64,000 nucleotides of DNA from Methanofervidicoccus sp. A16 (lineage in GTDB: Archaea; AGJL01; Methanococci; Methanococcales; Methanococcaceae), in the NCBI RefSeq assembly GCF_003351865.1, contig NZ_CP022242.1, positions 1,178,001 through 1,242,000 on the forward strand. The letters are read 5' to 3'. The notes beneath the pieces were generated by a model. That model was not told where the DNA came from. It worked only from the letters and a program-made list of their open reading frames with translations, and made no database searches. Positions 1 through 54,188 of this stretch are shown here, piece after piece. Made by a program: the position numbers and the translations under genes. The number at the start of each line of letters is the position of its first letter. Position 1 is the first letter of the stretch.

Positions 1-1
1 T

Positions 2-208
2 GTAGATGAGGCAGTATACCTCTCCGACAGGGTTATAGTGATGACTGCAAGACCTGGAAGGATAAAGGATATTATTTCTATAGACCTACCAAGACCTAGA
101 AAAAGAGATACCTTGGAGTTTATAGAGTATAGAAAAAGAATAGTAAATATATTAAAGGATGAGGTACTTAAGTCATATAATATGTATAATTATTCAAAAG
201 ATGTATAA
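2..208 (+). CDS. ABC transporter ATP-binding protein, C-terminal fragment (cut by window start)
   Basis: An open frame enters at the left edge and stops with TAA at 206-208, leaving 68 residues. It reads like the tail of a nitrate/sulfonate/taurine-type (SsuB/TauB) ATPase: the part after the H-loop has 'DEAVYLSDRVIVMTARPGR' followed by 'IDLPRPR', which is characteristic of that subfamily. Walker A, Walker B and the signature lie outside the window, so the subfamily rests on the tail alone. It would energise a membrane importer. A binding protein of the same transporter class sits far away at 51.5 kb, so the two need not work together. PhoU-like and NikR-like regulators follow closely on the same strand. 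Confidence 0.8.
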   Translation, partial: VDEAVYLSDRVIVMTARPGRIKDIISIDLPRPRKRDTLEFIEYRKRIVNILKDEVLKSYNMYNYSKDV

Positions 209-5980: not shown

Positions 5981-8900
5981 ATGGTAAGAATAGCCTTTGT
6001 ATCTACTGTGGATAGTGACGACTTAGTTTTTGAAGAAGCGTATGAGAAAGTTAAGGATTATCTAGAATTTAAAATATTAAAAAATGATTACAGCGAAAAG
6101 GAGTTTAAGGAGTTTCTAGAGTTTGTTAAAAAATCTAATATAGTATTTACAAAACTTATGGGAGGAAAAGACGCCTTTAAGGGTTTCGATGAATTGAGGA
6201 AAGTTACTGAGGAGTATAACATTCCATTTTTACCTCTACCTACAGTAAATGAAGTACATCCTGATCTCTTAGAGGCTACCACTGTAGATGATGAGGTTAG
6301 GGAAAAGGTAATGAAGTATCTAAGTTACGAGGGAGTTGAAAACTATAAGAACTTACTTCTATATTTAGCAAGTACCTTTGGAGACAGTTCTATAGAATAC
6401 GAGGAGCCAAAACCTACACCTTGGCAGGGAATTTATTATAAGGGGAGATACTTCGAGGATTTAGAGGAGTATCTATCGTTCTTAGGTGTATCCAAGGAGG
6501 AGTTAAAGAAAAAGCCCACTGTTGGAATACTCTTCTATAGAAACTGGTTTATTGCAAACAACATCGACTACGTAGATTACCTAATAGATACCATCGAGAG
6601 GAAGGGAGGTATTCCTATTGGGATATTCTCCTCCCATCTAAAAAATGATTTGGGGGCACTTGGTACCTTGGAGACATTTAGGAGGTACTTCTACATAGAT
6701 GGAAAACCTGTGATAGATGTTCTAATAAATACAACGATGTTTACACTATCCATGGGTATAAGGGATGACTACTTAGAGGAACCTCAATTTCTGAAGGAAC
6801 TTAACACACCGATATTACAGGGTATAATATCTACTGGATACATCGAGGAGTGGGAGAGATCTGAGAGGGGCCTTAATCCCATAGATCTCGTTATCGGTAT
6901 GGCGATGCCTGAGTTTGACGGGGCGATAATACACTTCCCTATAGGGGGGAAGAAGAAGGTTAAGGAGGGTAGAGTTGGGGTTCCTATTGTAAAGTACAAA
7001 CCTATTAGGGATAGATGTGAGAAGATAGTAGATTTAGCATTGAAATACGTAGATCTGAAGTTAAAGGATAACAGGGATAAGAAGATTGCAATAGTATTCC
7101 ACAACTATCCACCGAGAAACGATAAGATCGCATCTGCCTTTGGGTTGGACAGTCCAGAGAGTGTAGTTAATATACTGAAGGAGTTGAGGAGAAGGGGTTT
7201 CCTTGTGGAGAGGTTGTATAGTAGTGGGAACGAACTTATTGAGGAGATTCTGGATCATGTAACTAACGATATAAGGTTTCTAACTGAGGAGAAGATAAAG
7301 AGAACTGTGGATAAGATAGATAAAAAAACCTATGAGAGGTGGTTCAACAGTCTATCTGAGAGGGTTAAGAAGGAGTTAATAGAGCATTGGGGCTCTATAC
7401 CTGGAGATGTTATGAACTTCAGGGGAGAGTTGATAATCCCAGGTATAATAAATGGAAATATATTCATATCCCTTCAACCACCAAGGGGCTTTGGAGAGGA
7501 TCCATCGAAGATATACCACTGTCCAGATCTACCTCCATCCCACTACTATATCGCATTCTACAAGTGGATCAGGGATGTCTTTAAGGCAGATGCTGTTATC
7601 CACGTGGGGAAGCATGGTAGTTTAGAGTGGCTACCTGGGAAGTGTGTTGGACTCTCAAAGGACTGTTATCCAGATATAAATATGGAACTTCCAAATATCT
7701 ACCCCTATATTGTAAATAACCCTGGTGAAGGTACCCAGGCAAAGAGGAGATCCTACGCTACAATAGTATCCCATCTAATACCTCCTATGACTATTTCGGA
7801 TCTCTATGGAGAACTCTCTGAACTGGAAGGGTACATAGGGGAGTACTACGAGGCTGAGGGTAGGGAGAAAAAGGAGTTTTTAAGGAAGAAGATACTGGAG
7901 AAGATTAAGGAGTTAAAACTAGATGAGGATCTCATAGATGGGAGGATTATAGAGAGGGTAGATATTGAATTTGAGGATCTACTGGATAAGATCCATGACT
8001 ATATAGAGGAGATAAAGTACAGGCAGATAAACGATGGACTCCATATTATGGGGGCGCCCTTGGAGGGGGAGAGGTTAATAAACATGATATTTATGATAAT
8101 AAGGTATCAGTTTGACTACTTGAAGAGGATTTCAGAGGTGCTAAATTACAACTGGGAGGAGTTGAATGAACATCCAGGTAGGTATCAGAAGTTGATAGAT
8201 GAGGTGTATAAATACGGTATATCCCTCCTTCAGGAGTACAGTAGATACAACTTCCAGGAGGAATATATAGATAGATTGAAAACCCTTCCTGTAAATGAGG
8301 ACTTAAGGGACGTTTTAAAGGTTGTATCTAAGATATACAGAAACTTGATGAGGGTGGAGGAGGAGATAAAACATACAGTAGATGCCCTTGAGGGGTGTTA
8401 TGTGCCTCCAAGGGTGGCTGGGGCTCCCACTAAGGATATAAATTGTCTTCCAACTGGGAGGAACTTCTACTCCTGTAATCCTCAGGAGATACCTACAAAG
8501 TCGGCATACGAGATGGGGAAGAGACTTGCAGAAGATCTTATAAAGAAGTACTTAGAGGAGGAGGGCAAATATCCAGAGTACTTGGGGATAGTAATATGGG
8601 GATCTCCCACCATGAGGACGAGGGGGGATGATATTGGGGAGGTACTGTATCTCTTAGGGGTTAAACCTGTATGGAACAAGATGGGGAGGGTTGTAGGTAT
8701 CGAGGTAATTCCATTGGAGGAGTTGAAGAGGCCTAGGATAGACGTTACACTGAGGGTAAGTGGGTTATTCAGGGACACCTTCCCACAGGTTATTGAACTT
8801 ATAGACGAGGCTATAAGGAAGGTTGCAAACCTTCCAGAGCCTGAGGAGATGAACTTTGTTAAAAAGCACTACAGGGAGGAGGTTGAGGAGAAGATAAAAA

Positions 8901-51515: not shown

Positions 51516-52685
51516 ATTAAGAAGTTAATAGCCCTGTCTGTTGCAGGACTCCTTGTTTTAGGAGTGATGCTAGCAGGATGTATTGGAGGAAATACCACCA
51601 CAGAAACCAGCACTATGGTAAAACTAGTAAACTGTAAAGGACAGGGAGCAATGCCACAACTTTTAAGTACAGGAGAACTTGATGCAGTGATTGCATGGCA
51701 GCCAACACCTGCTGTACTGGAAACTAAAGGTATAGGAAAGGTTGTAATCTACAGTGGAGATCTTCCTCCAAAGGGTATGTGGAAGAATCACCCTTGCTGT
51801 GTAATGGTAGTTTCAGAGGATGCTCTAAAAAATAAGGATTATGCAGTCCGTGAATTTGTAAAGTTAATGGTACTGTCGGCAAAGGAGATGGAGAAAAACA
51901 AGACCTTGGCAATAGAGGCAAGTGCTAAGTGGTTAGGAGTGGATAAGGAGGTAGAAGAAAAATCTATACCTACCATTAAGTTCATCTCAGATCCTAAACT
52001 TATAGTTAATGGGACTTTAAACTTTGTAGAGGTTATGAGAAAACAGAATGCACTTAGCGGTAGATTGAATACCACCGACAGGGATAAGATACTTAATACA
52101 CTCTTTGACTTCGAGATTTACAACGAGGTAGTTAAGGAGATAGAGAACAATGTCGCAGTAGATCCACCTTATCCACCTTCAGAGGCACCTACCTTGAGGG
52201 TTGCACATCTTCCATCTGATCACCACGCCGCACTCTCTGTTGCAGCAACCTATCCAGAGTTGTTCAAAAAGAAGTATGGCATATACCTAGAGGAGGTAGA
52301 GCCTAAGAAGAAGTATATTCTCTATAGCCAAGGTAAGAAGGTGGCTGACGTTGAATTGACACTGGTAGTTGAAGGAGGAGCAAAGATAATGACACTAATG
52401 GCTCAGAAGCAGATAGATATAGGACTTAACGGAGTACCTCCTGCTGTATTCGCCATTGATAAGGGTACAGAAGGAAAGATCGTGTGTGCCCTCAACAGTG
52501 AAGGTTCAGCAGTTGTTGTAAGAAAGGACATCCCTGTAAACAACTGGGATGAATTTGTAGATTGGATTAAAGAACAGCATAAAGAAGGGAAAGTTGTAAA
52601 AATAGGCTATCCACTACCTGTGGCTATACAGTATGTAATGTTAAAGAGTGCCCTTGATGCTGAAGGTATAACTTACAGCGAATAA
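51516..52685 (+). CDS. ABC-type nitrate/sulfonate-like binding lipoprotein, apparently circularly permuted
   Basis: A 389-residue exported lipoprotein. 'LSVAGLLVLGVMLAGC' is a signal peptide with a lipobox, followed by a Thr/Asn linker. The mature protein then starts with what is normally the C-terminal half of SsuA/NrtA-type binding proteins ('VNCKGQGAMPQLLSTGELD', 'SGDLPPKGMWKNHPCC', 'EFVKLMVLSAKEMEKN'). Only after residue about 222 comes the normal N-terminal half ('TLRVAHLPSDHHAALSVA', 'MTLMAQKQIDIGLNGVPP', 'VRKDIPVNNWDEFVDW'), ending at 'ITYSE', the point where ordinary homologues continue into the first part. No ATG/GTG/TTG fits the signal peptide: the best start is ATT 51516, three bases after AGGTGAT. 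Permease and ATPase are not adjacent. Confidence 0.78.
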   Translation: MKKLIALSVAGLLVLGVMLAGCIGGNTTTETSTMVKLVNCKGQGAMPQLLSTGELDAVIAWQPTPAVLETKGIGKVVIYSGDLPPKGMWKNHPCCVMVVSEDALKNKDYAVREFVKLMVLSAKEMEKNKTLAIEASAKWLGVDKEVEEKSIPTIKFISDPKLIVNGTLNFVEVMRKQNALSGRLNTTDRDKILNTLFDFEIYNEVVKEIENNVAVDPPYPPSEAPTLRVAHLPSDHHAALSVAATYPELFKKKYGIYLEEVEPKKKYILYSQGKKVADVELTLVVEGGAKIMTLMAQKQIDIGLNGVPPAVFAIDKGTEGKIVCALNSEGSAVVVRKDIPVNNWDEFVDWIKEQHKEGKVVKIGYPLPVAIQYVMLKSALDAEGITYSE

Positions 52686-52992: not shown

Positions 52993-53808
52993 ATGGATCT
53001 ATCTAATGTTAAAAAATTTATCTACAAGTACTACATAGAGCCTATAGAAAAACAGTCAGGTTATAACTACATTCAGGAGATAACTTACGGTATACTACTG
53101 TTTTTTATGGTGTACATATTTTACAGAACATGTAAAATATTTCATATAGATATAGATAGGAGGTTTGCAGTGGTTACTGTATTTTATACAGTTCTCATAT
53201 CCCTTATAAGGGCCCTTGTAGATGGTGGTTATATCCCTCATACTTACTACACTGTAACTCCTGGTATCGTAATAGTGATAGGTTTATACTACCTTATTGC
53301 AATTATCTTATCTGCTTTAATACTTAAAGAGAGGTATTATATATTGGCAACAATTATGGCAGTACTACCTCTTACATATTTAATATTCATCTTTTTAAAG
53401 AACATGGTCCATATCGAGGCGCTATTTTACGTCTTATTTATGGTGGTTTTAATATATGCTATTTTTAACTATCTCCTTGAAAGGATAGAATCTATAAAAA
53501 ATATCCTAAAATTCCAATCTATAGATAGATACGTAATACTGGCCCAACTTACAGATGGTGTGGCCACTGCCATTGGAATTGGGTTGTATGGATACTGGGA
53601 ACAACATCCCTTGCCAAGGTTCTTTATGGATCACTTTGGTCCCTTTATTATGATACCCTTGAAGTTGGTGGCAGTTATAACTGTCCTCTATATTCTAAAC
53701 AGTGAGGTGGAGAATAGGGATCTGAGAAATATCTTGAAGATTACAGTTATGGCCTTAGGTCTTGCTCCTGGACTTAGAAATCTATTCAGGATTGTGATGG
53801 GAGTTTAA
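52993..53808 (+). CDS. DUF63 family membrane protein
   Basis: A 271-residue polytopic membrane protein of the archaeal DUF63 family, with about seven or eight hydrophobic segments (for example 'ITYGILLFFMVYIFY', 'VIVIGLYYLIAIILSALIL', 'ALFYVLFMVVLIYAIF'). Conserved polar pieces include 'ALVDGGYIPHTYYTVTPGI' and 'LTDGVATAIGIGLYGYWEQ'. Function is not established. The ATG has AGGTGA seven bases upstream. Its last four bases overlap the end of the convergent DtxR-like gene. Confidence 0.82.
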   Translation: MDLSNVKKFIYKYYIEPIEKQSGYNYIQEITYGILLFFMVYIFYRTCKIFHIDIDRRFAVVTVFYTVLISLIRALVDGGYIPHTYYTVTPGIVIVIGLYYLIAIILSALILKERYYILATIMAVLPLTYLIFIFLKNMVHIEALFYVLFMVVLIYAIFNYLLERIESIKNILKFQSIDRYVILAQLTDGVATAIGIGLYGYWEQHPLPRFFMDHFGPFIMIPLKLVAVITVLYILNSEVENRDLRNILKITVMALGLAPGLRNLFRIVMGV

Positions 53809-54188
53809 CTCTTTTTATCCTTTATACAGTTCTCTACAAATTCCTTAAACCTCTCAAATACTTCATCAGACATGGCATGTTCCAATCGACAGGCTTCCTT
53901 ATAGGCAATTTCTCTCTCCAATCCTAAACATTCAACTAAAAATGTCTCTATCGTCTTATGTTTATCTATAACATTTTTTGCTTTTTCCATACCTTTTTCC
54001 GTTAGTCTTATGCCTATATAGGGCTCATACTCTACATATCCCAATTTATGAAGTTTTTTAGCCATATTTGTAATAGCAGGAGGTTTAATATCCAACAGTT
54101 TGGCTAACTCGGTAGTTTTTACAGGCCTATTTTTATCCTTGGTGAATATATAGACCTTCTCTAAGAAATCTTCTATACTCTCAGACAT
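53805..54188 (-). CDS. DtxR/MntR-family metal-dependent repressor
   Basis: A 127-residue regulator with the N-terminal winged helix ('VKTTELAKLLDIKPPAITN' / 'KLHKLGYVEYEPYIGIRLT') and the metal-binding dimerisation domain ('KHKTIETFLVECLGLERE' and 'EACRLEHAMSDEVFERF'), with His/Glu/Cys residues in the usual metal positions. There is no SH3-like third domain, so it is MntR-like in length. It probably represses Fe or Mn uptake genes when metal is plentiful. Targets are not visible nearby; it is divergent from enolase. Confidence 0.88.
   Translation of the reverse strand: MSESIEDFLEKVYIFTKDKNRPVKTTELAKLLDIKPPAITNMAKKLHKLGYVEYEPYIGIRLTEKGMEKAKNVIDKHKTIETFLVECLGLEREIAYKEACRLEHAMSDEVFERFKEFVENCIKDKKS

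Follow-up and report, generated by a model that had tools for sequence, protein, structure and literature searches.

Circular permutation has been described before among the substrate-binding proteins (SBPs) of ABC importers. Glycine betaine-binding proteins are circularly related among themselves and to molybdate-binding proteins, and OpuAC of Bacillus subtilis, whose ligand is known and whose relatives are below 24% in identity, is circularly related to ProX (PMC2395249). PDB entry 2b4l in that study is OpuAC according to the paper cited there. A further example, TpMglB-2 (Tp0684) from Treponema pallidum, has the type I fold, is cut in the N-lobe and has a fourth hinge crossing, and its permuted part is 13% identical to EcMglB (PMC4990184). 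Among the type II proteins, TauA has a domain I formed by residues 23-104 and 202-319 and a domain II formed by residues 105-201 (PMC6906117). A literature search that covered few subscription journals found no published circular permutation in proteins of the SsuA/TauA/NrtA type. Many natural permutations are old, and their unpermuted relatives are too diverged for the event to be reconstructed.

The window analysed here is a 64,000-nucleotide stretch of the Methanofervidicoccus sp. A16 genome (NZ_CP022242.1, positions 1,178,001 to 1,242,000). At 51516-52685 on the + strand it contains a 389-residue ORF, open throughout and correctly delimited in the initial annotation of this DNA, which proposed a circularly permuted nitrate/sulfonate-type binding protein. 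The family assignment is borne out by a match of 93 bits to Pfam NMT1_2 (cut-off 24.7), and the permutation by profile order, orthologue alignment and a scan of rotations. The NMT1_2 match is split over two stretches, with profile positions 153-250 mapping to residues 34-139, so that the C-terminal part of the domain leads. Profiles TIGR01728 and SaoX show the same swapped order at lower scores. As the usual linear order of NMT1_2 is not kept, the protein is classed by homology as a permuted variant and not as an ordinary member.

Alignment with homologues, a check suggested in the initial annotation, gave the same picture. BLAST matches to normal-order orthologues consist of two collinear blocks in swapped order, orthologue residues 222-389 followed by 32-210, with identities of 57-76% in the N-terminal half and 47-60% in the C-terminal half (71% versus 57% for the two halves in G009, a normal-order genome of the same genus). 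Taken whole, the N-terminal half is 56-76% identical to normal-order orthologues of the family. When the mature sequence was rotated to begin at PTLRVAHL, global scores against five orthologues rose from ~560-675 to 1000-1220 (from 614 to 1136 for G009), and a scan of all rotations of the mature protein placed the optimum at PTLRVAHL or ≤15 residues away. This gain far exceeds chance. By homology, the gene encodes a circularly permuted type II substrate-binding lipoprotein of the SsuA/TauA/NrtA superfamily.

The signal peptide is followed by the former C-terminal half, a linker and the former N-terminal half, and the ORF stops at the point where the former C-terminal half used to begin. Features are listed in the table below.

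Table. Features of the permuted gene and its likely partner (window coordinates).
Feature	Position	Strand	Basis
3′ end of ABC ATPase gene, likely partner transporter	1..208	+	ORFs; SaoA/SaoP best NCBIfam matches; adjacency in other archaea
Ribosome-binding site and spacer gaggtgatact, 5′ of start codon	51505..51515	+	gaggtgat-N3-ATT kept in relatives
ATT (non-AUG) start and 21-residue lipoprotein signal peptide IKKLIALSVAGLLVLGVMLAG	51516..51578	+	Lipobox distance
Lipobox Cys and flexible linker 1 CIGGNTTTETSTM	51579..51617	+	Compared with normal-orthologue hinges, e.g. ITYTEDPNNKEAMV
Predicted lobe 2, second part (former protein middle), starts VKLVNCKGQG	51618..51758	+	Pfam/TIGR profile positions; model
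MWKNHPCC motif near second lobe crossover	51777..51800	+	Alignments
Predicted lobe 1, former C-terminal part	51792..52148	+	Model residues 72-190; aligns to C-terminal half of normal orthologues
New linker 2, ~NVAVDPPYPPSEA	52149..52187	+	Length and sequence vary among nine permuted genes
Predicted lobe 1, former N-terminal part (PTLRVAHLPSDHHAAL..)	52188..52502	+	N-half identity to orthologues; model residues 205-307
Predicted lobe 2, first part, ends ITYSE at new C terminus	52506..52682	+	Model
Stop codon, where old hinge continued	52683..52685	+	

The signal peptide and lipobox Cys are placed as in the normal gene. The cut points ITYSE and VKLVNCKGQG were correctly recognised at the outset; ITYSE, the new C terminus, coincides exactly with the start of the old hinge, and the final residues of linker 1 are similar to that hinge (..AM followed by V). 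Linker 2 (VAVDPPYPPSEA in the window) bridges the former C terminus and the former N terminus of the mature protein. In alignments the MWKNHPCC motif extends to distant bacterial homologues, and normal-order archaeal proteins have WxxHPCC. The bacterial NrtA/SsuA-like homologues (L036-L061) are ~400 aa long, several with an MSRRDFM leader, and retain GDMWKNHPCC.

The initial annotation placed the break between the two lobes, but the cut falls inside lobe 2. It lies at position 129 of the taurine-binding profile, which would correspond roughly to TauA residue 150, within domain II as delimited above, and the AlphaFold2 model agrees. In the model lobe 1 is now one continuous piece and lobe 2 is split. 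From this anatomy the number of crossovers would remain two, with the continuous and split lobes trading roles, and the main physical change is the shift of the lipid anchor from lobe 1 to lobe 2.

Structure prediction, likewise suggested in the initial annotation, gave a best AlphaFold2 model with two lobes, pLDDT 81.3 and pTM 0.83 (mean pLDDT of the five models 81, 77, 71, 53 and 48). The alignment behind this usable model held six full-length rows and 34 bacterial half-fragments; a model from six permuted rows alone reached pLDDT 47. Low pLDDT marks the first 8 residues, in the linker 1 region. With lobe membership assigned from the order of the elements along the chain, lobe 2 has five strands and four helices drawn from both chain ends and the continuous lobe 1 has eleven helices, the same counts as published for domains II and I of TauA (PMC6906117). 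Three of the strands and two of the helices of lobe 2 belong to its second part (E14-18 to E53-57), and two strands and two helices to its first part (E310-315, H323-335, E340-344 and H350-361). A Foldseek search of the PDB found only one match with E < 0.001, OpuAC 3chg (E 2.9e-4, 350 columns), at a TM of just 0.34/0.45. Foldseek compares chain order and OpuAC is itself circularly related to ProX, so this match suggests, though it does not establish, a similar cut. TauA 6ssy matched with E 0.04 and a TM of 0.30; given the comparison by chain order, a low TM to TauA is expected of a permuted chain and is no evidence against the fold. Since lobe 1 is continuous, lobe 2 is assembled from both ends and both crossovers are kept, the modelled protein would be expected to act as a Venus flytrap.

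Pairwise dN/dS among nine permuted genes is ~0.1, with most values at 0.08-0.16. The order-restored alignment has 99 invariant columns and no column in which permuted and normal proteins are each fixed for a different residue. Judged from these sequences, the permuted gene is maintained under purifying selection.

The likely partner of the protein is an orphan permease-ATPase pair (genome 1176648-1178208) with no neighbouring binding protein gene, 51 kb from the permuted gene. The permease gene, from 1176648, is directly upstream of the ATPase gene (1177408-1178208). The best NCBIfam matches of the pair are SaoP and SaoA, below cut-off, followed by taurine and nitrate transporter models. A link to the Sao system through these matches was rejected, both being under the SaoP/SaoA cut-offs, as was identity with SaoX (NF040735, Sec-assisted organometallic system; 29.9 bits against a cut-off of 300). 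Of the 36 genomes surveyed in the order, 33 have the permease at full length and one more has a copy truncated by a contig end; the permease gene is apart from the SBP gene in the genomes compared, including normal-order ones. In four archaea from other groups, an SBP homologue is directly followed by permease and ATPase homologues, and from this adjacency it is likely that the permuted protein still serves the SaoP/TauC-like pair. Proteins of this superfamily bind nitrate, bicarbonate, taurine or alkanesulfonates, and by analogy the ligand may, at a guess, be a small anion or sulfonate-like compound.

The gene thus probably encodes a membrane-anchored SBP of a SaoP/TauC-like importer, permuted in place once and still working. 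The alternative that survives best, although improbable, is that the folded protein has left transport, the anchor on lobe 2 blocking productive docking, and now serves at the surface as a sensor or a scavenger of ligand. The distance from the permease genes and the move of the anchor to the other lobe would fit such a role. However, the normal-order orthologues are also far from the permease, so that the distance is ancestral, and strong selection with no residue fixed differently also argues against a change of role. As regards the importer component favoured here, it is doubtful, though less so than the loss of transport, that the permutation is adaptive, with the lobe 2 tether and the continuous lobe 1 altering opening, closing or importer docking; if so, it would be a naturally selected, recent permutation that is directly comparable with unpermuted orthologues.

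The ordinary half order does not prevail throughout the order, as the gene is present in 33 of the 36 genomes, in permuted form in 9, all of this genus of heat-loving methanogens, and in normal order in 24. A profile of the permuted form found no further permuted member beyond the nine. This split dates the event, probably to the ancestor of most of the genus. The absence of the gene from G010 was at one stage read as co-loss with the permease; that reading was dropped, as the G010 permease is truncated by a contig end and the absence is uninformative.

Permuted G011 and G003 and normal-order G009 have four downstream neighbours in common, in the same order and orientation (CBS-domain, DUF1611, GMC-like oxidoreductase and PRPP synthetase-like genes), which indicates that the gene was permuted in place. 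Upstream genes differ between them. The lineage of the window has yet another neighbourhood, with mtd (methylene-tetrahydromethanopterin dehydrogenase) on one side of the gene and a DUF63 gene on the other. A DtxR/MntR-like iron-dependent-repressor gene at window 53805-54188 (-) shares a few bases with the end of this DUF63 gene.

A tree built after restoring the ancestral order of the halves groups the permuted rows in a single clade beside G009, nested among normal-order genes, with support of 92/87 that falls short of the 95/80 threshold. The C-half by itself also gives this clade (88/82); the tree of the N-half by itself lacks it, yet does not reject it (p-AU 0.236). Most likely a single event within the genus permuted the gene in situ and replaced the normal form, with the single origin not fully proven.

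Very improbably, half-genes of different paralogues were fused instead of one gene being permuted. Such an origin could account for the unequal identities of the two halves to relatives, seen for G009 above, and the tree of the N-half on its own is unresolved. However, the trees indicate that the C-half is the faster half in normal-order genes too, the C-half groups the permuted rows with same-genus G009 without rejection by the N-half, and no second, normal-order paralogue was found in the genome of the window.

Permutation of a single gene is likely to have proceeded by the route put forward in the initial annotation, tandem duplication followed by loss of outer halves. The mature coding region would have been duplicated in tandem within one frame, and if the first N-half and the last C-half were then lost, the observed layout would remain. 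This fits the anatomy exactly, but no tandem-duplicated intermediate was found. A repeat search at the junctions gave only short, chance-like pairs, and in G003, G006 and G007 the next gene follows the stop after ~35 bases, which leaves no room for a remnant of the second C-half. Both joined ends are rich in Asn, Ser and Thr in early-branching permuted genomes; it is speculation that this might favour short-homology events.

The ORF begins at 51516 with ATT instead of ATG, GTG or TTG, and for this reason a standard ORF caller picks GTG 51564, which lies within the signal peptide. There is no ATG, GTG or TTG upstream in frame of 51516, and likewise no standard start in several relatives. The lipoprotein signal peptide recognised in the initial annotation is confirmed; in each of the nine permuted genes the lipobox Cys is reached 21-22 codons from the start. 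The window ATT is aligned with ATG in G005 and with ATG or GTG in the family f2 genus. Among the permuted genes 8 of 9 begin with ATT or ATC, as do the Methanococcaceae genes of normal order that were examined, and a strong gaggtgat ribosome-binding site precedes the ATT of the window gene. It is uncommon for a non-AUG start to be conserved family-wide; such a start may restrict or regulate translation, which may be weak because of the ATT codon.

Together with the permutation, a non-standard start could mark a decaying gene, and a frameshifted copy exists in normal-order relative G028. Decay is nonetheless even harder to credit than a fusion of paralogues, as the gene is intact in all nine genomes with low dN/dS and intact normal-order family genes also start with ATT or ATC. 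The G028 orthologue (L074, ~7543-8678) is split by the frameshift into two overlapping frames, through sequencing error, decay or programmed frameshifting.

The permuted ORF runs without interruption in nine genomes of the genus, at 66-100% identity; in the eight other than the genome of the window it is present end to end at 66-90%. Five Methanothermococcus records, metagenome bins and SCGC genomes, also carry it. A collapsed tandem of two normal genes, the concern raised in the initial annotation, is scarcely credible and was excluded, as the same junctions occur with diverged sequence in nine separate assemblies and the genome of the window is one contig of 1,504,113 bases (1.5 Mb) with a single copy of the gene.

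The closest comparison is with the normal-order Methanococcales orthologues (e.g. G009, G016 and G026), which share the family, the conserved motifs and the lipoprotein signal peptide, and G009 also the downstream gene order, but differ in half order, in having the anchor on lobe 1 and in an unbroken lobe 2. Permuted and normal orthologues within one genus, with shared downstream neighbours and 57-71% identity in the two halves (window protein against G009), form natural pairs with which fitness cost, folding and effects of the tether can be tested. What is new here is a recent, single-copy, in-place permutation with unpermuted sister genes, and a single-copy ABC binding protein can evidently undergo permutation without being lost. 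Such genes can be mis-described in annotation pipelines, in linear profile searches and through start-codon rules.

TauA/SsuA/NrtA-type proteins are homologous to the window protein over both halves and its predicted lobe make-up is TauA-like (PMC6906117), but it is permuted inside domain II. It scores 59.3 bits with TIGR01728 (SsuA subfamily), below the cut-off of 163.5, as does a normal-order orthologue (71), and is also below cut-off with the TauA profile. The initial statement that no example had been described holds for this family as far as the search reached, but not for SBPs at large, for which permuted members have been published (PMC2395249, PMC4990184). OpuAC and ProX are similar in being related by natural circular permutation among type II SBPs. 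OpuAC differs in belonging to another sequence family, and the window protein has no OpuAC family match, the Pfam scan giving only NMT1_2 and a weak DUF2683. TpMglB-2 resembles it in being an ABC binding protein that carries a lipid anchor, is naturally permuted and has an additional linker (PMC4990184). Membership of a TpMglB-2-like 'Type Ic' was rejected, as homology and model of the window protein are type II, and in contrast to TpMglB-2 its halves are still ~50-76% identical to normal-order relatives in the family.
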